IMG/VR virus record: IMGVR_UViG_3300021962_006767
Coordinates: 1 to 22,852 of that record
Source: a virus
Strand: one strand, 5' to 3'
Length of the DNA stretch: 22,852 nucleotides
Below the pieces are notes generated by a model. That model was not told where the DNA came from, ran no database searches, and saw only the letters and a list, made by a program, of their open reading frames with translations. Position 1 is the stretch's first letter, and every line of letters begins with the position of its first letter. The position numbers and the translations under genes are program-made. Below are positions 1 to 20,737 of this stretch, in pieces.

Positions 1-102
1 AAATTTTTCCAAAGAATGATGCAATTGAAGTGGAACGCAACGCAGTATGGGTTGGTGCAAGGAAGTCCTGATAAAATTATTCCAATTATTGAGAAAATAT
101 GA
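1..102 (+). CDS. C-terminal end of an unidentified protein (5' partial)
   Basis: Reading frame 1 is open from the first base to a TGA at 100-102 and encodes about 33 residues ending in PDKIIPIIEKI. The stop overlaps the ATG of the following radical SAM gene (ATGA, 99-102), the usual sign of translational coupling in this window, which is the main reason to call it a real gene end. The fragment is too short to assign a family. By position it probably belongs to the same enzyme unit as the two genes that follow. Confidence 0.6.
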   Translation, partial: KFFQRMMQLKWNATQYGLVQGSPDKIIPIIEKI

Positions 103-1436
103 GTTATAGTAAATTTAAAACAAGCAGTGGAAAACAATTCTTTTATAGAAATACTGATAATAGTATTCACAACGAAGATGGTGAACTTTTATCATTGCCT
201 CCAAAAGAAGGCTGGGAATATTTTGAAAATATCAACAAACAAAATATTTTTGGCGTAACACATAAGACAAATAAACCTACTGCTTTACGCATCTTATTAG
301 GTCATGCATGTAATTATTCATGCGGGTATTGCATGCAAAAAGATATTGGTAATCCTAATGAAAGACCTGAAAACTTTTGGCTACCATCTTTCATTGAATC
401 GATTAACACTCATTTAGATTTAGAGCAACTTGAAAGGGTAGAATTGTGGGGAGGCGAACCATTTTTATATTGGAATGATATGATGGCAATCATGAAATTG
501 CTTGATGCCCCCAATCGTCATTTCTATATTTCAACTAATGGATCTCCGTTGAGGCAAAAGCATGTAGATTTTTTTAAAACTATACAAGCTACTATCATGA
601 TGGGTATTTCACATGATGGACCTGGACAAGAACTTCTTCGTGGTGAAGATATCTTTATTAAAGAGAGCGTAGCAGATACTATTAGACAGCTGGGAGAGAT
701 GCATCCTAAAATTCAATTCAGTTTTAATACTGTTATCTCTGCTCAAAACTTCGATCTATTTAAAATCAATGACTATTTTAAAGACGTATCTAACAAACTT
801 GGATTAAAACATGCAAGGTTGAGTTTTATTCCAGCTCGTGTCTATGATGATACAGATTCACAAAATTCTGCAGATCATGTAATAAAGGGTGAATTATTAC
901 CAGAATTTAAAAAAATGGTAGACTCATATTTAAAAGCTGCTATTAAACAGGTAAAAGACGGCGGAGATCGTTTCTTAAATTGTAATATAGTTGATAATGA
1001 AGTTGGGGTTTTACGATACGCGTTATTAACTAGACACCAGATTCCAGTGACAATGACTTCAAGTTGTGGTGCAGATGCCGCAGATATATTATCCATGGAT
1101 ATACGAGGCAATGTTAGATTGTGTCCACACACCTCTGAGAAATTTACTGGAGGACACATCAACAATCTGAAGGGAGTGAAGATTATAGGTCTTACGCTAG
1201 AAAGAAAGGACACTCACTGTTCTACTTGTCCAGTTAAAAGGCTATGTAAATCTAGTTGCCCTATAGATTTTCCAACTGAAGTATTTTTACATAATTGTAG
1301 GGTTGAAAAAATTTGGTATTCAGCTATTCAACAAAACGCATTTGCGTTATTATTTGGAGAAGAGGTTGAATTATTAGAGACTGGAATACATGAAATTAGA
1401 TCTAAAGAAGATACAAGAACACCGATCTCAGCTTGA
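99..1436 (+). CDS. Radical SAM protein with complete SPASM domain
   Basis: This 445-residue protein belongs to the radical S-adenosylmethionine superfamily. The cluster-binding CX3CX2C motif is C71, C75, C78, and the GGEP motif of the SAM site is at 118-121. The C-terminal part matches a full SPASM domain: C323, then G337 and C342 (GX4C), then C374-X2-C377-X5-C383-X3-C387, then C400. All seven cysteines are present, so two auxiliary iron-sulfur clusters are expected. SPASM enzymes often modify peptides or proteins (anaerobic sulfatase-maturating and sactipeptide or quinohaemoprotein maturases), but some act on small molecules, and the substrate here is unknown. The start overlaps the previous stop by ATGA. 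The 3' end overlaps the DUF3050 gene by 47 bases, so the two are surely co-expressed. No small precursor peptide is visible nearby. Family confidence is high; the reaction is not predictable. Confidence 0.93.
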   Translation: MSYSKFKTSSGKQFFYRNTDNSIHNEDGELLSLPPKEGWEYFENINKQNIFGVTHKTNKPTALRILLGHACNYSCGYCMQKDIGNPNERPENFWLPSFIESINTHLDLEQLERVELWGGEPFLYWNDMMAIMKLLDAPNRHFYISTNGSPLRQKHVDFFKTIQATIMMGISHDGPGQELLRGEDIFIKESVADTIRQLGEMHPKIQFSFNTVISAQNFDLFKINDYFKDVSNKLGLKHARLSFIPARVYDDTDSQNSADHVIKGELLPEFKKMVDSYLKAAIKQVKDGGDRFLNCNIVDNEVGVLRYALLTRHQIPVTMTSSCGADAADILSMDIRGNVRLCPHTSEKFTGGHINNLKGVKIIGLTLERKDTHCSTCPVKRLCKSSCPIDFPTEVFLHNCRVEKIWYSAIQQNAFALLFGEEVELLETGIHEIRSKEDTRTPISA

Positions 1437-2136
1437 GAATCATTCTCTTCTTGTAACAAACAATATACAATCCATTGAAGATCTTAGAATCTTCATGAAA
1501 TATCACGTCTTTGCGGTGTGGGATTTCATGAGTCTATTGAAAACCATGCAACATCACGTTGTTCCGTCTGGGGAATTATGGTTACCTACTACAGGCACAA
1601 GATCTGATATTGCTAGGATGATCAATGAAATAGTTCTTTGTGAAGAATCTGATATATCTGCAGACGGTAAAGGATCTATGTCTCACTTTGATTTGTATTT
1701 GCAGGCTATGATGGAAGTAGATGCTGACACGAATCCTATTAGAGAATTTTTGCAGCGGGTTGAAAAAACCGGAGTTCCTTGGCATGCTCCGCAAATAGTA
1801 GAACCATTCATAGATACAACGTTTTCAGCTATTAGAAAAGGACCGCATTGTGCTGCCGCTTCATTCTGTTATGGTAGAGAGTCAGTCATTCCAGCCATGT
1901 TTAAAAAATTGCTTAGACAGATTGATATTTCTCAAACAGAAGCCCCCAAATTTCATTACTACTTAGAAAGACATATTCAAGTAGATGGGGAAAGTCATGG
2001 GCCCATGGCAGAACACTTGGTTAATTATTTTTGTAAAGATGATCCATTTTTGATTCATGAAGCTGAGCAAACTGCCATTAAAGCCATTAAAGCCAGAATA
2101 AAACTATTTGATGATATAGAATCGCAACTTATATAA
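1390..2136 (+). CDS. DUF3050 family, probable haem-oxygenase-like diiron oxygenase
   Basis: This 248-residue protein matches my recollection of the DUF3050 family throughout. The N-terminal helix carries H39-VFAVWDF; NEIVLCEESD follows at 79-88, SHF at 98-100, YGRES at 161-165, and a C-terminal E193-R-H195 with D199 and H203-G. The regularly placed His, Asp and Glu on predicted helices fit a helical diiron or non-haem iron oxygenase of the haem-oxygenase-like group, though I cannot assign ligands with certainty. The ATG at 1390 is preferred because family members keep the residues before the FAVWDF helix; the next ATG (codon 36) would remove that helix start. It overlaps the radical SAM gene by 47 bases, suggesting one pathway. 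A late promoter box overlaps its stop codon. Function unknown. Confidence 0.85.
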   Translation: MKLDLKKIQEHRSQLENHSLLVTNNIQSIEDLRIFMKYHVFAVWDFMSLLKTMQHHVVPSGELWLPTTGTRSDIARMINEIVLCEESDISADGKGSMSHFDLYLQAMMEVDADTNPIREFLQRVEKTGVPWHAPQIVEPFIDTTFSAIRKGPHCAAASFCYGRESVIPAMFKKLLRQIDISQTEAPKFHYYLERHIQVDGESHGPMAEHLVNYFCKDDPFLIHEAEQTAIKAIKARIKLFDDIESQLI

Positions 2137-9226: not shown

Positions 9227-10057
9227 ATGGCAATTAAAATGACAAGTCAGTACATCGAGCATATCGATGGAACTAAACAATATACGAACGTTGAAGAAAA
9301 AGAATTCTATGTTTATAATTCTAACTTCTGGTCTCCAGTAAATGGCGGCATGTGTTGCTTATGGACAGTACCTAATGGAACTACGTCGATTAAGTTTGAA
9401 TTGTTATCGGGTGGTGGACCGGGTGGTTCATCTGGCGGCGATTATGATTTTGGCACTGGTGGTCAAGGTGGTAACTATACCGTTAAGACGATAACTCGCA
9501 ACGTTGCGGGATTTACAGATGGTAGCCAATACACAATCTGTGCGGCAGGTTCATCAGATTGCTCATGCTGCTGTTCATGTAATATGAATTGCAGACACGG
9601 TTGTACATCATTCGTAACTGGCCCAGGACTATCTAACTTCTGCGCTCTTGGTGGTATGGGTGGTTCAACAAGTTGGGACATCATGAGCAGTTGTTATAAC
9701 TGTTTTATTGGTAATGTACAATGTAGCGTTGGTAACTATAATGCTGGTTGGGTAAACCATGTATGTAACACACCGACGTATGGCGGTGATATAGAATTTA
9801 GAGGCACATCTGGATCAATAAGAAGAACTCAACCAGACTGTTGTGCTGACGTCAGCAATGCGCCTGGTTCTCCAACGGGCCCATTCGCAGCTTGGCATGG
9901 CATTGGTGGTAAACACTTATGCGTTGGTAACTTAGCATGTTGTTCAATGCATGCAGCATGGCCGGGTGGCGGTGGTGGTGGACATGGTACAGCTTCAACA
10001 GATGCATGTTGGGGTAGCTTTGGTGCAGGTGGTCTAGTTAGAGTAACTTATAGTTAA
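9227..10057 (+). CDS. Cys-rich, Gly-rich fibre tip-like protein, copy 1
   Basis: The first of three tandem paralogues, 276 residues with 21 cysteines. A short N-terminus has the IDGTKQY element, a degenerate form of the 'F-x-DGT-x-Q' motif that joins fibre shafts to tips. Then comes CCLWTVPNGTTSIKFELLSGGG, poly-glycine stretches (GGGPGGSSGGDY, GGQGGNY), a dense cysteine block DCSCCCSCNMNCRHGC, further paired cysteines (DCC, ACC), and FGAGGLVRVTYS. The 'WTVP-x-G' opening and 'GAGG-x-V-x-V-x-Y-S' closing match the Gly-rich tip of the fibre at 18174, so a glycine-rich receptor-binding fold is likely. No signal peptide. The cysteines could form disulfides, bind metal or be modified. An AGGAAAA ribosome site precedes the start. 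Confidence 0.8.
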   Translation: MAIKMTSQYIEHIDGTKQYTNVEEKEFYVYNSNFWSPVNGGMCCLWTVPNGTTSIKFELLSGGGPGGSSGGDYDFGTGGQGGNYTVKTITRNVAGFTDGSQYTICAAGSSDCSCCCSCNMNCRHGCTSFVTGPGLSNFCALGGMGGSTSWDIMSSCYNCFIGNVQCSVGNYNAGWVNHVCNTPTYGGDIEFRGTSGSIRRTQPDCCADVSNAPGSPTGPFAAWHGIGGKHLCVGNLACCSMHAAWPGGGGGGHGTASTDACWGSFGAGGLVRVTYS

Positions 10058-10065
10058 TAGGAAAA
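10054..10065 (+). promoter_or_regulatory. Ribosome-site element TTAATAGGAAAA (one of three)
   Basis: The same 12 bases occur just before the starts at 10070, 11788 (copy at 11772-11783) and 22549 (copy at 22534-22545), each ending three or four bases from the ATG. The AGGAAAA part serves as ribosome site; the TTAAT part carries no obvious role in translation. Confidence 0.6.
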
Positions 10066-10069
10066 GTAT

Positions 10070-10897
10070 ATGGCAATTCAATTAGACGACGATTCGATTT
10101 TATTCCCTGATGGCACACGACAATATAAAGCTGTTGAAAGAAGACACTTCTTCGTTTACAATAGTAATCACTGGAGTCCACAAAATGGTGGAGCTTGCTG
10201 TTTATGGACAGTTCCAGCAGGAACTACATCAATCAAATTTGAAATATTAAGCGGCGGAGGTCCAGGTGGTTCATCTGGTGGTGACTATGACTACGGCATT
10301 GGTGGTCAAGGTGGACATTACACTGCAAAGACTCTAAGAAAATCAGCTGGTGATTTCGTTGCTGGATGTCAATATACAATCTGTGCAGCTGGTACATCTG
10401 ATTGTTCATGCTGCTGTGTATGTAACTGCACCACTCGACATGGTTGTACATCATTTGTAACTGGTTCTGGCTTATCAAACTTCTGTGCAATAGGTGGTCA
10501 AGGTGGTTATACTGGTTGGGAAATCATGGATAACTGCTATAACTGTCACATAGGTAATGGTCAATGTAACTTAAGCATCTATAACGGCCAATGGGCTAAC
10601 TGTACATGTAATACACCAACTTATGGTGGTGATATTGAATTTAGAGGAACCATGGGTTCTATGTTCAAACAGTACAACTGTTGTGCTGACTTTACTACTT
10701 TACCTGGTTCTCCAACTGGTCCATTCTCGGCTTCTCATGGAATCGGTGGTAAACACTGGTGTGTCGGTGATTTTGCATGTTGTTCAGGTCATTCAGCATT
10801 CCCAGGTGGAGGAGGATTTGGTCACGGCACAGGTTCAAGTAATGCTTGTTGGGGTGGATTTGGTGCTGGTGGTTTAGTTAAAGTATCTTATAGTTAA
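10070..10897 (+). CDS. Cys-rich, Gly-rich fibre tip-like protein, copy 2
   Basis: This 275-residue paralogue has 22 cysteines. It begins MAIQLDDDSILFPDGTRQYK, where FPDGTRQ is the classic shaft-to-tip motif of phage fibres, then ACCLWTVPAGTTSIKFEILS. The cysteine block here is DCSCCCVCNCTTRHGC, with a different spacer from copies 1 and 3, and ANCTCNTPTYGG carries one additional cysteine. It ends with FGAGGLVKVSYS. Twelve bases separate it from copy 1. It lacks the long shaft expected of a self-sufficient fibre, so it probably caps another fibre, as separate Gly-rich adhesins do in some T4 relatives; that comparison is by fold type, not demonstrated homology. Confidence 0.8.
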   Translation: MAIQLDDDSILFPDGTRQYKAVERRHFFVYNSNHWSPQNGGACCLWTVPAGTTSIKFEILSGGGPGGSSGGDYDYGIGGQGGHYTAKTLRKSAGDFVAGCQYTICAAGTSDCSCCCVCNCTTRHGCTSFVTGSGLSNFCAIGGQGGYTGWEIMDNCYNCHIGNGQCNLSIYNGQWANCTCNTPTYGGDIEFRGTMGSMFKQYNCCADFTTLPGSPTGPFSASHGIGGKHWCVGDFACCSGHSAFPGGGGFGHGTGSSNACWGGFGAGGLVKVSYS

Positions 10898-10899
10898 TA

Positions 10900-10907
10900 T
10901 ATAAATA
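10900..10907 (+). promoter_or_regulatory. T4-type late promoter box
   Basis: A perfect TATAAATA lies in the 37-base gap between copies 2 and 3 of the Cys-rich genes, 27 bases before the ATG at 10935. It would allow copy 3 and the downstream chaperone to be expressed independently of copies 1 and 2. Confidence 0.75.
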
Positions 10908-10934
10908 GAACAGCAGACATTAAGGTAGAAAAAT

Positions 10935-11762
10935 ATGGCAATTCAATTAGATGACGACTCAATACTATTTGGTGACGGTACACGCTCATATAAAAACGTA
11001 CAAAAGAATGAATTTTATGTTTATAATGAGAATCATTGGTCGCCAGTAAATGGTGGAAAGTGTTGCCTCTGGACAGTTCCAGCTGGAACAACTTCTATCA
11101 TATTCGAGCTATTAAGTGGCGGCGGTCCAGGTGGTTCATCTGGCGGTGACTATGATCACGGCGTTGGTGGTCAAGGCGGTAACTATACGATGAAGACATT
11201 GCGAAGAAGCAATGGTGATTTCGTTGCAGGTTGCCAATATACAATCTGTGCAGCTGGCACATCAGATTGTTCTTGTTGCTGTTCATGTAACATGAATTGC
11301 CGTCATGGTTGCACATCGTTTGTAACTGGTTCTGGTTTATCAAACTTTTGTGCTATTGGCGGTATGGGTGGTTCAACAAATTGGGATATGACTTCAAATT
11401 GTTATAACTGTCATATCGGTAATATACAATGCGATAGAGGCAACTATAATGCTGGTTGGGTAAACCATGTTTGTAATACGCCAACTTATGGTGGTGATAT
11501 TGAATTTAGAGGCACATCTGGATCATTTCAAAGACAATACGATTGTTGTGCTCATGCTTGGTCGGTTGCCGGTTCTCCAAGCGGCCCATTCACCGCAGCA
11601 CACGGAATTAGTGGTAAACATCGTTGCGTAGGTAACTTAGCATGTTGTTCAGCACACGCTGCATTCCCAGGTGGTGGTGGAGCAGGTCATGCAACCGATT
11701 CATCTGATGCTTGTTGGGGTAGTTTTGGTGCTGGCGGTTTAGTTAAAGTAACTTATAGTTAA
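10935..11762 (+). CDS. Cys-rich, Gly-rich fibre tip-like protein, copy 3
   Basis: This 275-residue paralogue has 21 cysteines in the same order as copy 1. Its N-terminus (MAIQLDDDSILFGDGTRSYK) follows copy 2, but its cysteine block (CSCNMNCRHGC) and much of the C-terminal half (NAGWVNHVCNTPTYGG, GNLACCS, SDACWGSFGAGG) follow copy 1, so it looks like a mosaic of the two. The glycine stretches and the closing GAGGLVKVTYS are conserved. It has its own late promoter 27 bases upstream. The next gene is a fibre assembly chaperone, which supports a role at a fibre end. Confidence 0.8.
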   Translation: MAIQLDDDSILFGDGTRSYKNVQKNEFYVYNENHWSPVNGGKCCLWTVPAGTTSIIFELLSGGGPGGSSGGDYDHGVGGQGGNYTMKTLRRSNGDFVAGCQYTICAAGTSDCSCCCSCNMNCRHGCTSFVTGSGLSNFCAIGGMGGSTNWDMTSNCYNCHIGNIQCDRGNYNAGWVNHVCNTPTYGGDIEFRGTSGSFQRQYDCCAHAWSVAGSPSGPFTAAHGISGKHRCVGNLACCSAHAAFPGGGGAGHATDSSDACWGSFGAGGLVKVTYS

Positions 11763-11787
11763 TTATTAGGATTAATAGGAAAAAAAA

Positions 11788-12492
11788 ATGTCAAAAACAT
11801 TAACATACAATCTTCCAGATTATCATTTGTCTGATAAAAGAACAACGAATAAAACTGGAACACAAACATATTATGGACCGGATGAATTAATCCTTCATCT
11901 TGACGAAGATGGTTCTATTTTTGAATCATTTGCTCCTGGTGAAGAACACAATCGTCCGCTAGCGTTAAATCTAACTCGTGTAGTGTTTACTCCGGTAACC
12001 GATGAAGATTATATTAAAGCTGCTCTAATCTATGGTGGACTTGCTGTACCGAAGGTATATGAAGTAGATATCGGTCCAGCTGATTATCCAAATACTACCA
12101 TTAAAGATCCATCTGATATCCGTGAAGTATTTGATGAGATGGCCGTAATGCGAGATTATACTCAACCATTAAAATTCAGAACTTTAGAGCGTGATCGTTC
12201 TGATGAGTTTATTAGACAAAGAAGAAATACATTGCTTGAGCAATCTGACGGTAAAATATCTCCTGATATGCCAGAAGCATTAAAGCAAGCTTGGTTAGAC
12301 TATCGTCAAAAGCTGCGTGATTTACCACTTAATATGGCAGAAGTTCCTAATTATTTAATTAGATTCCCAATGTCTCCTGCTGATAAGTATGATCCATACT
12401 TTGAAGATCCAGCAGTAGAAGTAATTCGAATTGCTGATAGAACTCCAGAAGATCTCGTAAGATTACAACAGCTTCCTCCAGGAGCTAATTAA
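11788..12492 (+). CDS. Tail-fibre assembly chaperone-like protein
   Basis: Of the 234 residues, the segment at about 135-185 carries the pattern of the phage tail assembly chaperone-like domain (Pfam Phage_tail_APC): DEFIRQRRNTLLEQSD, then a Pro/Asp turn, then KQAWLDYRQKLRDLP. Proteins with this domain commonly lie directly after a fibre gene and help fold or attach it. The N-terminal part (LTYNLPDYHLSDKRTTNKTG, LILHLDEDGSIFESFAPGEE) is not recognised and may bind the fibre tip. Its place right behind the three Cys-rich tips suggests they are its clients. Start supported by the AGGAAAA element four bases before the ATG. Confidence 0.8.
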   Translation: MSKTLTYNLPDYHLSDKRTTNKTGTQTYYGPDELILHLDEDGSIFESFAPGEEHNRPLALNLTRVVFTPVTDEDYIKAALIYGGLAVPKVYEVDIGPADYPNTTIKDPSDIREVFDEMAVMRDYTQPLKFRTLERDRSDEFIRQRRNTLLEQSDGKISPDMPEALKQAWLDYRQKLRDLPLNMAEVPNYLIRFPMSPADKYDPYFEDPAVEVIRIADRTPEDLVRLQQLPPGAN

Positions 12493-12515
12493 ACTACGCT
12501 TGGTGTGAATTGATA

Positions 12516-12544
12516 TATACATTATACGACGTGTATAGTGTATA
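12516..12544 (+). other. Long intergenic inverted repeat (hairpin)
   Basis: TATACATTATAC (12516-12527) and GTATAGTGTATA (12533-12544) form a 12-pair stem with one T-G mismatch (G-U if RNA) around the 5-base loop GACGT. It sits in the 72-base gap between the fibre chaperone and the glycosyltransferase gene. There is no T run after it on either strand, so it is not a standard intrinsic terminator. It could be an operator, an RNA-processing or stability element, or a non-canonical terminator separating structural genes from the enzyme cassette. Confidence 0.7.
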
Positions 12545-12564
12545 ACAAATTATGAAGGATTGTC

Positions 12565-13554
12565 ATGAAGAAAGCTTTTTTTATTAATGGTGGCGCAGGT
12601 CGTGTACTCTGCGCCATTCCAGCTTTAGAATACCACATTCAAAATATTGATCCAACGGCGCCGATTATTGCGGAAAGCTGGATGGATCTTTTCTTAACTA
12701 GTAAGATCATTAGAAATAATGTATATCACCTCAATCATAATGGATTGTTTGATATCCTTAAAGATCGAGAACTAGTATCTCCAGAGCCGTATCGTCTAAA
12801 TGCCTATTTCAATCAAAAGGCAAATTTAATTCAAGCATTTGATATCCTTATCAATCAAGACGGTAATACACTCGAAATTCCAAAAACAAAAAAATTAAAT
12901 GTTGAATTGGGCAAAGCCGACATCGTCGTTGCTAAGAACCTTCTGAACGAGTGTAAACGTCATTTACAGCGAGATAAGGTTATCGTATTTCAACCGTTTG
13001 GTTCTGGCGCTAAAGTAGATGGATCTTACATCGTTGATACAAGCGGGAGATCTTTTGAAGTTGATGATATTAAAAAAATTATCAAAGAATTGAATAAGAA
13101 CTATGGAATTATCTTAATGTCAGATATTAAGATACATTCGAACGAACCTCTTAACGTTATGACTCCCGAAGGTTTAAACTTATTACAATGGGCAGCACTA
13201 ATTTCTGAAGCAGATTATTTCCTTGGATGTGATTCAGTCGGACAACATATGGCTAATGCCGTTGATAAACCAAGCACTGTAGTTATTGGCGCCACATATC
13301 CAGAAAATATCACATACCCAGAAAATAAGAAGTTTAATATTATCGATAACGGAAAAGAGGATAGAGTTTATTCTCCAATTCGAATCGCGTTTGATTTAGT
13401 GGCTGATAGGAATAATGAAAATTTAATGCAACTAAGTGATGAAACTATATCATCTCTCATTAAAAGCGTTGAGAGTAAATTGGGAAAAAATAATTTCAAA
13501 CAATTTGAAATGCCTGTGGCACCAACACAACAGGCTTCTTCTTGCTGCAAGTAG
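12565..13554 (+). CDS. GT9 (heptosyltransferase-like) glycosyltransferase
   Basis: This 329-residue protein has the two-domain pattern of family 9 glycosyltransferases. The N-terminal loop is INGGAGRVLCAIPALEY, like the glycine-rich loop and 'P-A-L' of heptosyltransferases. A strand VIVFQPFGSG opens the second domain. The nucleotide-sugar region reads YFLGCDSVGQHMANAVDKPS with D223, S224 and H228, matching the 'D-S-G-x-x-H-x-A-A' motif, then VIGATYPENITYP. The donor and acceptor sugar cannot be read from this. It ends in ASSCCK, an unusual Cys pair. GAAGGA precedes the start. It heads a cassette with two carbamoyltransferases and two oxygenases, so it may add a sugar that is then tailored. 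The acceptor may be a virion protein, a host surface glycan or a nucleotide-linked sugar. Confidence 0.78.
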   Translation: MKKAFFINGGAGRVLCAIPALEYHIQNIDPTAPIIAESWMDLFLTSKIIRNNVYHLNHNGLFDILKDRELVSPEPYRLNAYFNQKANLIQAFDILINQDGNTLEIPKTKKLNVELGKADIVVAKNLLNECKRHLQRDKVIVFQPFGSGAKVDGSYIVDTSGRSFEVDDIKKIIKELNKNYGIILMSDIKIHSNEPLNVMTPEGLNLLQWAALISEADYFLGCDSVGQHMANAVDKPSTVVIGATYPENITYPENKKFNIIDNGKEDRVYSPIRIAFDLVADRNNENLMQLSDETISSLIKSVESKLGKNNFKQFEMPVAPTQQASSCCK

Positions 13555-13560
13555 GTAATA

Positions 13561-14643
13561 ATGAAGACGGGTTATATTGTTGGTCTTTCATTGGGGCATA
13601 ATGCATCGACTTGTTTATTAAAAGACGGTCAAATAGTTTTTTCTGTTGAAGAAGAACGATTAACTAGACTTAAAGCAGATGGTTCTCCAATGCTTGGATT
13701 ATTAAAAGTTTTAGAATATACTGATAAAGTAGATTATATTGCAATTAGCTATCCAGGTGATGATAGACCAGTTATAGAATATACACGAGAACACATATAT
13801 CATGGTATGGCTAGAAAATTGGGTTTAGTTAGTGCATATGATGAAAATGTAAAACGTTCGCAATATTTAGATTATACAGATCAACACCATCTTGCGCATG
13901 CAACATGTGCGTACTATAACTCAGGATTTGAATCGGCCGCAGTAGTAGTAGTTGATAGTGCTGGTAGCGAAATAAATTTATCGTTCAAAGATGAGAATAA
14001 TAAATTTGTCAAAGGATATGAAATTGAATCTATATATAATTTTTCAAATGATGAATATAATACATTATACAAAAAATATGGTTCACAGGCGGTGCAAGTA
14101 ATACCAACAATAAGTTTTCGTAACGGCTGCGAAACTGTTATTGACTTTACTGCAGGAATTGGTAAAGCATACGATGCAGTAACAGACTATCTTGGTTTTT
14201 CGCTAAGAGATTGTGGTAAAACTATGGGACTTGCTCCATATGGTAAACCAAATAAAGACATCCCAGATTTTTTTATACATAATAGCAAATGGTCTAGTGT
14301 AAATCCAGCAATTATTACACCATGTTTCAGAGATGCAGCTAAAATTAATATCCATAAGTTTGAACAGTTTAAAGATGTTCCTAAAGAAGATATTGCATAC
14401 AAAATCCAACAAGAAACACAAGAAGAAGTTTTGAAATTATTAATTAAAGCATCTGAAATATCTGGTAATAAAAATGTTTGTTTGACTGGTGGCTATGCAT
14501 TAAACTGTGTTGCCAACTATTATTACAAAGAAAAATTAAACGAATTGGGAATTAATTTATACGTTGAGCCAAATTCAAGTGATGCTGGAACATCAATTGG
14601 TGTAGCATATTTGGCATATCATTATACAAAGGAAATTAAATGA
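13561..14643 (+). CDS. Short NodU/TobZ-type carbamoyltransferase lacking the YrdC-like domain
   Basis: Of the 360 residues nearly all form the Kae1-like N-terminal domain of O-carbamoyltransferases: GLSLGHNASTCLLKDGQIVF, EEERLTR, metal-site H109 and H113 (HxxxH) with D132 nineteen residues on, GKTMGLAPYG, GGYALNCVANYYY, and D341 in SSDAG. The spacing H113-D132 equals that of H118-D137 in TobZ. The C-terminal domain that makes carbamoyl-adenylate is absent: the gene ends in TGA overlapping the start of the full-length paralogue (ATGA), with no leftover of that domain. The metal site is intact, so it may be a working acceptor-specific transferase fed by its partner, or a regulatory subunit. Starts six bases after the glycosyltransferase stop. 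Confidence 0.85.
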   Translation: MKTGYIVGLSLGHNASTCLLKDGQIVFSVEEERLTRLKADGSPMLGLLKVLEYTDKVDYIAISYPGDDRPVIEYTREHIYHGMARKLGLVSAYDENVKRSQYLDYTDQHHLAHATCAYYNSGFESAAVVVVDSAGSEINLSFKDENNKFVKGYEIESIYNFSNDEYNTLYKKYGSQAVQVIPTISFRNGCETVIDFTAGIGKAYDAVTDYLGFSLRDCGKTMGLAPYGKPNKDIPDFFIHNSKWSSVNPAIITPCFRDAAKINIHKFEQFKDVPKEDIAYKIQQETQEEVLKLLIKASEISGNKNVCLTGGYALNCVANYYYKEKLNELGINLYVEPNSSDAGTSIGVAYLAYHYTKEIK

Positions 14644-16451
14644 AGAAGACTGGTTATATTGCTGGCATCGCTCGTGGTCATAATGCTGGCGTTTGCCTAT
14701 TAAAAGATGGTGAGATTGTTTTTTCTATTGAAGAAGAACGTTTAACTCGTCACAAATATGATGGTGGGCCTTTAGCATCTATTGTTAAAATTTTGGAATA
14801 TACTGATAAGATTGATTATCTTGTCATTTCTCACACACAGCCAGACGAAAGTCGTATTGATTTTACTGGTGAAAAAACATATAACTCATTAGCTCGTAAG
14901 TTAGGTCTAATTAAAAACGACGAACAAGTTATAGAGATGTGGGACAATCATCACCGCAATCATGCGGCTTGTGCATTTTATCGTTCAGGCTTTGATTCAG
15001 CAAACGTTATCATCGTCGATGGCGCAGGAACATTTCATCGTCGTCCAGACGGAGAAACAATGTGGGAAGTTGAATCGATGTATGAAGCATCCTATCCCGC
15101 AACATTTAAAGAAATATATAAGCATTTTGGTGGACGCGGTCCATGGCCAACTGAACATTATGAAATTAATGGGTGTGAAGTTTTAATCAATGATCGTCCT
15201 GGTATTGTTAAGGCATATGAAGCCGTTACACAGTTTTGTGGTTGGGCGCCAATTGAAGCCGGTAAAACTATGGGATTATTTCCATACGGTGAACCAAATA
15301 AAGCACCAAAGATCTTTAATGAATTTGGTGTAAGTCGCGATGTAATTATTCCAACATATCCTAATGGATCTATTGTTGATGAAAATAATTATCCGCAATT
15401 AAAAGACAGCAAATACGATGTTCAAGCAAGAGCTAGGACTTTAAATTCAAATTCACCTCAGCATGAATTGCGTGCTATGGATGAATACTACAAAGAATCT
15501 TTAACAGAAGATGTTACTCTGTTAGAATCTCGTAGGAACATGGCATATAACATCCAGACTGAATCACAGGCTGAGGTGTTAAAACTAATTCATAAAGCAA
15601 TTGAAAAGAATGGTAATAAAAATATTGTTATTAGTGGTGGCTACGGCTTAAATTGCGTTGCAAATTACTGGTACTTAGACAAGTTGCCAGAAGGTACAAA
15701 GTTATTTGTTGAACCAATTTCGAACGATGCTGGTACTGCCATTGGTGCAGCGTTATTAGCATATCATACTATTAGTGGAGATGATCGAGTGAGACAAAAG
15801 AATGAAACATTATACCTTGGGCCAGTACAAGAAATTACGCCTAAAAAAGTAATTGAAACCGCCATGAAATATGGTGGTACTGTATATGAGAATGTTGACT
15901 ACGAGCGCGTCATCAATACAATTAGAGATAAAAACATTGTTGCTCTATTTCAAGAACGCTGTGAGAATGGTCCTCGTGCATTAGGCAATAGAACATTGAT
16001 GTATGATGCGACAGATCCAAATGGTAAAGACTTTGTTAATCTAGTTAAGAAGCGCGAGTACTTCCGTCCATTTGCAGCATCAGTGTTACAAGACGATGTA
16101 CACGAATGGTTTGATTTGCGCGGTATGGAAGATTCTCCATCAATGATGTATGCTGTTAATTGTAAACCGGGAGTAGAAGAAAAGATTCCTGCGGTTATCC
16201 ATGTTGATGGTACTTGTAGAATTCAAACCGTTACTGAAGAACAGAATCCGCATTGGTATAACTTAATTAAAGAGTTTAAAAATCAGACAGGCATACCAGC
16301 GCTGTTCAACACATCATTTAATTTGGGCGGAGAACCATTGGTTGAAACTATCGATGATGCAATGAGAACATTGTATAACTCTGGAATCAATTATATCTAT
16401 TTCCCAGCAGTTCAAATCATGGTAGAGATCAAACATAATGACAGAGCATAA
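14640..16451 (+). CDS. Full-length NodU/TobZ-type O-carbamoyltransferase
   Basis: This 603-residue protein has both domains of the family. The Kae1-like part shows GIARGHNAGVCLLKDGEIVF, EEERLTRHK, H104 and H108 (HxxxH), D127, GKTMGLFPYG, GGYGLNCVANYWY and D363. The YrdC-like part, from about residue 390, carries GPRALGNR (444-451), FRPFAASVL, HVDGTCRIQTV and LFNTSFNLGGEPLV. Family members use carbamoyl phosphate and ATP to make carbamoyl-adenylate, then carbamoylate a hydroxyl, usually on a sugar or antibiotic. Compared with the short paralogue upstream there is an insert of about 50 residues before the AYNIQTESQAEVLKL helix. Its 3' end overlaps the next oxygenase by 14 bases. Likely to tailor the sugar handled by the GT9 protein; the acceptor is not known. 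Confidence 0.92.
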   Translation: MKKTGYIAGIARGHNAGVCLLKDGEIVFSIEEERLTRHKYDGGPLASIVKILEYTDKIDYLVISHTQPDESRIDFTGEKTYNSLARKLGLIKNDEQVIEMWDNHHRNHAACAFYRSGFDSANVIIVDGAGTFHRRPDGETMWEVESMYEASYPATFKEIYKHFGGRGPWPTEHYEINGCEVLINDRPGIVKAYEAVTQFCGWAPIEAGKTMGLFPYGEPNKAPKIFNEFGVSRDVIIPTYPNGSIVDENNYPQLKDSKYDVQARARTLNSNSPQHELRAMDEYYKESLTEDVTLLESRRNMAYNIQTESQAEVLKLIHKAIEKNGNKNIVISGGYGLNCVANYWYLDKLPEGTKLFVEPISNDAGTAIGAALLAYHTISGDDRVRQKNETLYLGPVQEITPKKVIETAMKYGGTVYENVDYERVINTIRDKNIVALFQERCENGPRALGNRTLMYDATDPNGKDFVNLVKKREYFRPFAASVLQDDVHEWFDLRGMEDSPSMMYAVNCKPGVEEKIPAVIHVDGTCRIQTVTEEQNPHWYNLIKEFKNQTGIPALFNTSFNLGGEPLVETIDDAMRTLYNSGINYIYFPAVQIMVEIKHNDRA

Positions 16452-17073
16452 GTGTGAAGATGAAGGACAGGTTTTAGGATTATTCCCAACCCCTGTATAT
16501 ACAACTAAGTTGACCGGCAAACAATATGATGCGGTACAAAATGAATTAAAAGTAGTCGTTGATAAATTGTATGCTAATGATACTTGGGGTCAAAATACTC
16601 AATGGAACTCTACTGAACATTTTCTATCCAATGCTGGTAATTTTGAACAGAATATTTTAGAAGAAGAAGATATGAAAGATGTAATATCAAATATCTTTCA
16701 TCATTGCATTCACTATATGAATGCTACAAACACTAAACCTGGATTTAGACCGTCTATAGTTAGTTCATGGTTAACATTAACAAAACCTGGATTACATGCT
16801 CATATCCACGATCATGGTACAAATCAGATTAGCGGTGTATATTGGTTTAAAACGAATGGCAAAGATGGTAACATCTATTTTAGAAATGCGCTTAAAGCTT
16901 TAAAGTGTAATCCTATTGGTGCGACCGTTGGACATGAAGCAGAGTTTGCTCCAGAACAAGGTAGACTTGTAATGTGGCCGAGTTTTATGGATCATGGCGT
17001 ATATGAAAATAAGACTGATGATGATCGTATTAGCTTATCATTCAACATCACTTTAGAACGAGTTGTTAAATGA
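16438..17073 (+). CDS. 2-oxoglutarate/Fe(II) oxygenase, 2OG-FeII_Oxy_5 type, copy A
   Basis: The 211 residues follow the TIGR02466/2OG-FeII_Oxy_5 plan: LFPTPVYTTKL near the start, SSWLTLTKPGLHAHIHDH, ISGVYW, a short loop, then GRLVMWPSFMDHGVYEN and DRISLSFNITLE. Likely iron ligands are H124 and/or H126 and the distal H186; R197 would bind 2-oxoglutarate. A classic HxD is replaced by HDH, which fits this family. Members are frequent in marine T4-like phage genomes and are often called proline or sugar hydroxylases without proof. The gene overlaps the carbamoyltransferase by 14 bases and its stop overlaps the next start, so it is part of the cassette. Substrate unknown. Confidence 0.85.
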   Translation: MTEHKCEDEGQVLGLFPTPVYTTKLTGKQYDAVQNELKVVVDKLYANDTWGQNTQWNSTEHFLSNAGNFEQNILEEEDMKDVISNIFHHCIHYMNATNTKPGFRPSIVSSWLTLTKPGLHAHIHDHGTNQISGVYWFKTNGKDGNIYFRNALKALKCNPIGATVGHEAEFAPEQGRLVMWPSFMDHGVYENKTDDDRISLSFNITLERVVK

Positions 17074-17681
17074 ATGTGTGGATAGACGGATATCCTGTAT
17101 CCATCATACGACTATCTGATAATGACTTAAAAGATCTACAGACACATTATCTTCCAAAATGTTTAGATATCAAGCCCGAAGATAAGAACGCAAATGGTGG
17201 ACAATCATTTGCAAAGAACGAGTCTCAGAGATGGTGTGAAGACCAAGACTTTTTTACAAAGTGGAATGAGACTATAACGCCATACATCAAAGGTTATATA
17301 GATTCATTTAATTTTCAATTCCCTTGGATCATGAGGATTAATACATGGTTTAATGTCCATGGGAAACATGATTTTCAATCATTACATGATCATATAACGA
17401 CTGATTGTCCTGCCTTTTCTTGTGCAGTTGTGTTAAAACAACCAAATAAAGACGCAGGACAATTCTGTTTCCGCTCTCCCAATTTTTCTAAACATTTAAA
17501 GTATTTAGAACTAGATCCTTTAAATGCATATGATAACACATATCAGCCTGAAATGGTTGATGGGGCAATGATGATATTCCCATCTTGCTTAGAGCACTAC
17601 GTCACTCAAAATATAACCGATGAATTGCGCGTTGTTTTTGCTTCGAACATAGTCGTGAAAAGAACAAATAGTCTGTTTTAA
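17070..17681 (+). CDS. 2-oxoglutarate/Fe(II) oxygenase-like protein, copy B (divergent)
   Basis: This 203-residue protein is a distant relative of the preceding oxygenase. It keeps the same order: MRINTWFNVHGKHDF, LHDH with H106 and H108, FSCAVVLKQP, AGQFCFRSPN, a long loop, then GAMMIFPSCLEHYVTQN with H176, and ELRVVFASNI with R187. The candidate iron triad and the 2-oxoglutarate arginine are therefore present. The spacing after the first His pair is three residues longer than in copy A and the 'SGVYY' strand is altered, so the substrate may differ. Its start overlaps the previous stop (ATGA). It ends the enzyme cassette; a late promoter follows. Confidence in the fold is good, in the reaction low. 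Confidence 0.75.
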   Translation: MNVWIDGYPVSIIRLSDNDLKDLQTHYLPKCLDIKPEDKNANGGQSFAKNESQRWCEDQDFFTKWNETITPYIKGYIDSFNFQFPWIMRINTWFNVHGKHDFQSLHDHITTDCPAFSCAVVLKQPNKDAGQFCFRSPNFSKHLKYLELDPLNAYDNTYQPEMVDGAMMIFPSCLEHYVTQNITDELRVVFASNIVVKRTNSLF

Positions 17682-20015: not shown

Positions 20016-20303
20016 ATGAAAGCATTAGTAATAAATGGAAGAATTTGTGATGTCGTAACCGACGATAAAACATTTGAAGTGCATGAATCGTTACAGTGGA
20101 TTGATTGTCCAGATGATACAACAATTGACCATAAATATGAAGATGGACAGTTTGTTTATGCTCGTGTAGAACAACCATATAATGTAAATCGTAGCATGAA
20201 TTATCCTACAATACAACAACAATTAGATACTCTCTATCACGAAGGCTATGACGGATGGAAAGCAACAATAACAGAGATTAAAGAAAGATATCCGAAACCA
20301 TGA
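20016..20303 (+). CDS. Small protein with tail-accessory (XkdW-like) C-terminus (95 aa)
   Basis: The C-terminal half, MNYPTIQQQLDTLYHEG then DGWKATITEIKERYPK, matches a motif I recall from small proteins and fibre-operon products of many marine phages (the 'NYP-x-x-x-x-QLD-x-L-(Y/W)-H' and 'K-x-x-Y-P-K' pattern). The N-terminal half (ALVINGRICDVVTDDKTFEVHESLQWIDCP) looks like a short beta domain. It follows the fibre gene after nine bases with an AGGGAA ribosome site, a usual position for a fibre assembly or tail accessory protein. Its stop overlaps the Dps-like gene. Function not established. Confidence 0.65.
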   Translation: MKALVINGRICDVVTDDKTFEVHESLQWIDCPDDTTIDHKYEDGQFVYARVEQPYNVNRSMNYPTIQQQLDTLYHEGYDGWKATITEIKERYPKP

Positions 20304-20737
20304 ACAAATTAGTAGAACAACTTCGTAAAGTATTAGCATCTAACTTTGCACTATATCTTAAGACACATATGTTCCATTGGAACGTAGAAGGTGCAAACTT
20401 CAATGATTACCATGCATTCTTCGCAGGCGTATATGAAGATCTATTCGCTCAATCAGATCTATTAGCAGAATTCATTCGTCAACTAAATGAAAAAGCTCCA
20501 GGTTCATTATCAGTTTATAACGCTGAAAGCTTAGTAAAAGATGAAGAAGGTTTTCCAAGTGCAGATGAGATGTTTAATAAACTTGCATTTGATACACAGA
20601 CAATGATTGTTTTGTACCAAGGCTTATATGATGCTGCTGAAGAAGCAGGTGAACACCAAATTTCCAACTATGCAGCTGATCGCATGGCAGCTCATAAGAA
20701 AACAGCATGGATGGTTCGTTCTATCCTAAAAAAATAA
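20300..20737 (+). CDS. Dps/ferritin-like protein
   Basis: The 145 residues form a ferritin-like four-helix protein of Dps type. The family signature is clear: H26-W-N-V-E-G-A-N-F, H38, then D53 and E57, aligning with E. coli Dps ferroxidase ligands H51, H63, D78 and E82 at identical spacing. The fifth ligand, D67, is replaced by A42, so iron oxidation may be altered. It lacks the lysine-rich N-terminal tail used by E. coli Dps to bind DNA. Dps proteins form 12-subunit shells that oxidise and store iron and protect DNA. The gene is coupled to the tail accessory gene (ATGA) and followed ten bases later by gp13, an unusual place. It could be expressed late to protect DNA or hold iron, or be a virion component. 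Confidence 0.87.
   Translation: MNKLVEQLRKVLASNFALYLKTHMFHWNVEGANFNDYHAFFAGVYEDLFAQSDLLAEFIRQLNEKAPGSLSVYNAESLVKDEEGFPSADEMFNKLAFDTQTMIVLYQGLYDAAEEAGEHQISNYAADRMAAHKKTAWMVRSILKK

Follow-up and report, generated by a model that had tools for sequence, protein, structure and literature searches.

A radical SAM/SPASM and DUF3050 gene pair at the end of a putative phage cassette for modifying cysteine repeats of tail proteins

In the PapB (ranthipeptide), SCIFF and CXXX-repeat systems, the gene for a radical SAM/SPASM enzyme adjoins one for a small protein that consists of a leader and a core and has its cysteines at regular intervals; PapB forms thioethers between a cysteine sulfur and an aspartate or glutamate carbon. 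In the biosynthesis of PQQ, a radical SAM/SPASM enzyme (PqqE) and an oxidase of the heme-oxygenase fold (PqqC) work from a peptide precursor. HamA-type proteins (HamA, PvfA, and MgoB), which belong to the DUF3050 family, act in diazeniumdiolate pathways, where their exact step is still putative; the structure of HamA has been solved. Phage adhesins are usually regarded as unmodified protein. Radical SAM genes are nevertheless on record from phages: the host-recognition clusters of pelagimyophages carry radical SAM cassettes, noted there without a function (PMC7029224), and the 12 radical SAM genes of one marine T4-like genome have been discussed in terms of Fe-S metabolism (PMC5332604).

The DNA analysed here (the window) is a whole IMG/VR virus record of 22,852 bases, which opens with three overlapping reading frames on the plus strand. 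Positions 1–102 encode the last 33 residues and the stop codon of a protein designated C3 (translation KFFQRMMQLKWNATQYGLVQGSPDKIIPIIEKI*, matching the C-terminus of C3 in the relative L016), and its TGA overlaps the ATG of the next gene (ATGA). This gene, rSAM-C (99–1436), encodes a radical SAM/SPASM enzyme of 445 aa (PF04055, E = 9e-10; phrog_1802, E = 1e-42), with a radical SAM CX3CX2C motif at 309–332 (C71, C75, and C78) that is kept among its relatives and with SPASM cysteines at 1065–1298 (C323 to C400) that would hold auxiliary Fe-S clusters. The third gene (1390–2136) encodes a DUF3050 protein of 248 aa (PF11251, E = 2e-75), a HamA-like diiron oxidase/oxygenase of the heme-oxygenase fold with predicted diiron ligands E86, H99, E164, H195, D199, and H203 (1645–1998). 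It overlaps rSAM-C by 47 bp (1390–1436), an arrangement found in most relatives, and translational coupling is possible.

The original prediction had placed these overlapping radical SAM/SPASM and DUF3050 genes in a phage late region, and this description stands: both reading frames are intact, all ten cysteines are present, tail and fibre genes follow downstream, and a gp13-like neck protein in the window is ~43% identical to neck proteins of the T4 superfamily (Stenotrophomonas, cyanobacteria, and Pelagibacter phages). A Dps/ferritin-like gene also lies in the structural region (20300–20737). No close DNA relatives of the window were found among isolated phages. An environmental relative, contig L002, is identical to the window in every common gene and extends it upstream into C3, of which it carries 310 residues (97% identity). 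Judged by gene arrangement, the rSAM-C/DUF3050 pair closes an operon at its 3′ end, and the edge of the window cuts this operon.

IMG/VR was scanned with profiles of DUF3050 and radical SAM proteins, and with others added later, and the genes at the matching loci were compared; gene calls were based on open reading frames, and the contigs are fragments, several of them near-identical. The pair had been expected to be conserved next to fibre genes, as was found: rSAM-C lies directly upstream of DUF3050 in 13 of the 14 DUF3050 loci of the first scan. Gene order in these relatives makes the pair the tail of a cassette of six to eight genes, in which a cysteine-repeat protein encoded upstream, beyond the window, is the candidate for a dedicated substrate. 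The usual order is C5, pre (the small candidate precursor), rSAM-A (~585 aa, SPASM), rSAM-B (~370 aa), C3 (~355 aa), rSAM-C, and DUF3050, and a second protein related to pre (C1L) is usually present. One contig with the whole operon, including pre (L016), has 93.6% DNA identity to the window over rSAM-C, and the cassette spans widely differing phages, on contigs of up to 379 kb. In a selected set of 46 viral contigs, pre, rSAM-A, rSAM-B, C3, and rSAM-C were present in all 46 (in two of them pre was taken from a second locus on the same contig), C5 in 42, C1L in 41, and DUF3050 in 30. As a less biased check, a DNA pattern scan for the repeat only, blind to the enzymes, returned 31 loci, 29 of which have the cassette radical SAM genes; of the other two, one has these genes in another part of its contig, and the other is a chance match. 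The matches of a five-cysteine DNA scan were mostly chance. In some cassettes a gene is inserted at the start, encoding a rubrerythrin-like protein (L018:1729-2517) or a class III aminotransferase (L004:455-1729). The sole match for C3 in a genome collection (L034) is a 14.8-kb contig with a full cassette in an Alteromonadales MAG bin, probably a phage contig.

The candidate precursor pre (63–93 aa, 45 distinct forms) was read from near relatives of the window (L016), the window's own copy lying beyond its edge. It ends in alternating cysteines (e.g., ...DDYTTVCECQCQCDCSRGTL), and its common features are an HxH motif, D(D/N)[YF], the alternating cysteines, and RG with a few residues at the end (CECQCACACGRGTV, CNCNCNCNCTRGIL, and NCQCNCSRGSI). 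The core has three to six cysteines, and the residues between them across the 45 precursors are Q (51), N (44), A (29), E (24), D (15), and a single R. A small precursor with a conserved leader and a core of variable length was found beside the enzymes in 46/46 contigs, all relatives of the cut window; as far as sequence can tell, the layout of pre is that of a radical SAM peptide precursor. The leader (HxHxFxDDY) resembles C-terminal modules of tail proteins, and two larger phage proteins with C-terminal repeats are also picked up by a leader HMM (25.5 and 19.2 bits).

The cysteines of rSAM-C (71, 75, 78; 323, 342, 374, 377, 383, 387, and 400) are spaced CX3CX2C and CX13GX4C ... CX2CX5CX3C ... 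C. C71, C75, C78, C323, and C342 are invariant in 63/63 relatives and the remaining cysteines are nearly so, C400 being replaced by histidine in 6/63; given this conservation, the pattern is not a product of chance. The protein scores 39.4 bits with PF04055 (cut-off 29.5) and has the seven-cysteine SPASM pattern CX9-15GX4C-CX2CX5CX3C-C; its score with the TIGR04085 SPASM model (25.2 bits) is just below the cut-off of 27. Among solved structures, the radical SAM protein 8vpo is its best profile match. rSAM-C is more distant from the peptide maturases than rSAM-A, whose best NCBIfam matches are PapB (118 bits), SCIFF (76), and CXXX-repeat (76); both miss the PapB equivalog cut-off of 340 bits (NF047865), rSAM-C at 46.6 bits. 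RiPP maturases are also among the matches of rSAM-B. C3 has no Pfam match, but three observations make it a probable, divergent fourth radical SAM enzyme of the cassette: a CX3CX2C motif in 41/42 members, hhalign probabilities of 78–80% against rSAM-A and rSAM-B with larger alignments (a single rSAM-B sequence gave none), and an AF2 model (pLDDT 87) whose top PDB match is the radical SAM RiPP maturase SkfB, weak at E = 0.008 and TM 0.37. C5 has no PDB match and evolves too fast, and a catalytic assignment for it was dropped. The phage cassette differs from the PapB, SCIFF, and CXXX-repeat systems in scoring under all curated cut-offs, in a repeat period of two (CXCXC), in combining three clear radical SAM enzymes with the probable fourth, in being phage-borne, and in the occurrence of its repeats also as fusions to tail fibres.

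The DUF3050 protein is of the HamA type of HDO, with 254 bits against PF11251 and six diiron ligands (E, H, E, and HX3DX3H), assigned after the CADD/DUF3050 model (PMC4520260) and each kept in 36–37 of 37 relatives. Its AF2 model matches HamA (9VWB) with TM 0.79, 37% identity, and E = 6.5e-47, followed by CADD, UndA, PolF, and PqqC. The statement that DUF3050 lacks an assigned reaction therefore needs qualification: HamA, PvfA, and MgoB are proteins of this family with a place in diazeniumdiolate pathways, and it is their exact reaction that is still unproven. The phage protein shares Pfam family, fold, and ligands with them but is tied to radical SAM enzymes and a peptide and has no visible diazeniumdiolate partners; no NRPS or AurF-like N-oxygenase was recognised among the genes listed or scanned around the cassette. 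The combination of a radical SAM/SPASM enzyme, a heme-oxygenase-fold oxidase, and a peptide precursor also resembles PqqE with PqqC, but PqqC is only a distant fold match, PqqA, PqqB, and PqqD were not recognised in the cassette gene lists, and the precursors here are cysteine-repeat proteins, which places the cassette outside the PQQ pathway. On gene content, DUF3050 is a dispensable part of the cassette: it is missing from 16/46 cassettes and from the loci that carry rSAM-C without the cassette (solo loci, below), and it occurs elsewhere without rSAM-C. DUF3050 loci without the cassette (L118-L121, L125-L127) showed no consistent partner.

Tail proteins encoded beside related radical SAM genes also carry cysteine repeats. 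In 14 of the 20 solo rSAM-C loci there is a gene for a small polyglycine protein whose start has a CxC/CxxC motif (CGAC[AS]C or a close variant, CACAC[DA]C, or CQCQCQCQC), a fifteenth (L181) has the motif with a GTG start, and five, one of them truncated, lack such a protein; a protein of this kind was found in 0/79 other fibre-region loci totalling 1.14 Mb. Four unrelated contigs (L200, L239, L249, and L271) encode gene-like (CX)4C tails of the (CN)n type or similar to it, and each has a radical SAM relative close by; the repeat-tailed proteins of L239 and L249 match tail-fibre families, that of L271 does so marginally and that of L200 does not, and the radical SAM enzymes of L249 and L271 score best with PapB, below its cut-off. 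In the cultured Achromobacter phages JWF and 2-1, a radical SAM gene, gp030 in JWF, lies two genes after the fibre gene. The JWF fibre gp028 (YP_009224034.1; L128:3676-5127) has the segment ...VKPRQNCNCDCNCNCS, ending NCNCDCNCNCS and immediately followed by a Hint domain (PF05203, E = 3e-12), and self-cleavage by this domain would leave the repeat at the C-terminus of the fibre; the fibre of phage 2-1 (L393:2688-4130) is similar (NCNCDCNCS), the Hint domain having been searched for in JWF only. The radical SAM proteins of the two phages belong, like rSAM-C, to the phrog_1802 family and adjoin a fibre with a (CN)n segment; they differ from the cassette in being single enzymes with no DUF3050, and in JWF in the position of the (CN)n stretch before the Hint domain.

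Other genes accompany some of these loci. Directly 3′ of five solo rSAM-C genes lie TonB-dependent-receptor-like and Tct-type transport genes (L160:3907-6006, L157:5147-8198, L159:6453-9522, L162:6100-8199, and L177:2989-5798), the receptor call resting on PF00593 in L160 (E = 1e-42) and on judgement by eye in the other four. Three more solo loci (L176:3753-4196, L155:4537-4992, and L156:4144-5004) have nearby proteins that are cupin-like (by eye, with no Pfam match) or of the fatty-acid-desaturase family (PF00487, E = 2e-27, in L156), which perhaps replace DUF3050 as an oxidative step. Five tandem radical SAM genes lie beside tail genes on a 543-kb viral contig (L394:4484-10891).

The pair had been proposed to work in sequence on one substrate, perhaps a virion protein. 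Independent comparative evidence backs a tail protein as the target; as the pair is not the unit and DUF3050 is dispensable, sequential action of the two enzymes is only possible. With moderate confidence, we favour the reading that the pair ends a RiPP-like modification cassette whose substrates would be (CX)n cysteine-repeat segments destined for the tail tip. Phages would then probably remodel chemically the host-contacting portion of their virions, where we infer both the chemistry and the virion location. The HxH leader of pre, or an equivalent C-terminal module of a fibre, would present the repeat to rSAM-A and rSAM-C, which would install carbon-radical modifications or cross-links on the (CX)n stretch. 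Thioether (ranthipeptide-like) cross-links to Asx/Glx residues between the cysteines would be the most likely product, because rSAM-A is nearest to PapB (a similarity far under the curated cut-off) and the inter-cysteine residues are mostly Q, N, E, D, and A. Additional changes would come from rSAM-B and C3, and cassettes with DUF3050 would perform one more, optional step, the O2-dependent oxidation of the product or an adjacent residue by this diiron enzyme. The HxHxFxDDY leader may both recruit the enzymes and dock the modified repeat onto the tail, where the repeat could harden the receptor-binding tip or let it bind a metal or a receptor.

It is unlikely that the cassette instead makes a free RiPP natural product, such as an antimicrobial, a signal, or a superinfection-exclusion peptide, that is released and forms no part of the virion. 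A leader-plus-core protein with several radical SAM enzymes as direct neighbours has the classic layout of RiPP systems, the affinities of rSAM-A and rSAM-B to RiPP maturases fit it, and a stand-alone pre could be a secreted peptide; however, the gene lists examined showed nothing recognisable as an exporter, a RiPP peptidase, or an immunity gene, other phages fuse the same repeat to tail fibres or polyglycine tail proteins beside related radical SAM genes, and the leader HMM reaches two larger repeat-ended phage proteins. A further proposal, which concerns the role of the product and overlaps the tail-tip reading, is that the (CX)n stretches are metal-binding (metallothionein-like) tips, with the radical SAM enzymes modifying a nearby residue or building a metallophore-like tip that exploits metal uptake receptors. 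CXC is a metal-binding motif, the leader has its HxH, and several solo rSAM-C loci precede TonB-dependent receptor or Tct-type transport genes; this link to TonB is confined to a minority of the solo loci, and we consider the proposal doubtful. Action of rSAM-C and DUF3050 on a small molecule, as for HamA, with the cassette as an auxiliary metabolic pathway, draws on the closest solved DUF3050 structure being that of HamA, from the fragin/valdiazen pathway, and is improbable: the regions examined hold no NRPS or AurF-type N-oxygenase partner, DUF3050 is missing from cassettes that never lack the precursor, and rSAM-A is most like peptide maturases. A role of the radical SAM genes in the Fe-S or cofactor metabolism of the infected host, as proposed for the T4-like genome in which 12 radical SAM genes occur with Fe-S assembly genes (PMC5332604), is very improbable, as it explains neither the conservation of the (CX)n protein nor the location by the tail fibres nor the (CX)n fibre tails of unrelated phages, and the assembly genes could merely supply the cassette enzymes with clusters.

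The window carries a second conserved tail-associated cassette. Three tandem Cys-rich Gly_rich_2 fibre proteins with ~25 cysteines each (9227–11762) are followed, within 9227–17681, by genes for a 234-aa protein, a GT9-like glycosyltransferase, two NodU/TobZ-type carbamoyltransferases, and two 2OG-Fe(II) oxygenases, and this CysGly-234aa-GT9-carbamoyltransferase-2OG set recurs in L317 and L319-L331. One carbamoyltransferase paralogue (13561–14643) consists of the N-terminal domain only and lies directly before the full-length copy. The fibre proteins were considered as substrates of the radical SAM enzymes and dropped as members of this separate cassette, which occurs without radical SAM cassette genes in reach (no HMM matches to these genes in 79 loci). 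Contig L317 is closely related to the window, and its slot ahead of the same fibre genes (L317:461-2905) holds a different radical SAM gene, covered by the profile scan, and two 2OG-Fe(II) oxygenase-like genes, called by sequence reading, which suggests that this slot takes exchangeable modification enzymes.

No description of such a system was found in the literature on phage radical SAM proteins, of which most subscription papers lay outside the coverage. The pelagimyophage cassettes are alike in the insertion of radical SAM genes in a phage host-recognition region and differ in that the accessible text describes no substrate, function, or cysteine repeat (PMC7029224). The kind of chemistry, radical SAM peptide modification, is known; the target is unusual. 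Whether tailed phages of several lineages use multi-radical-SAM cassettes to turn tail-tip cysteine repeats into cross-linked or metal-binding receptor-contact structures, a class of virion modification not described so far in which a HamA-type diiron enzyme would tailor a peptide, is in our estimate evenly balanced. The cultured phage JWF, with its repeat beside a Hint domain in the fibre, offers a direct test. If the reading is right, DUF3050 would gain a peptide context and new (CX)n maturases would be on offer, the function-less radical SAM genes in the host-recognition clusters of marine phages would be explained, and the cassette would give phages a chemical route to diversify their contact with the host.
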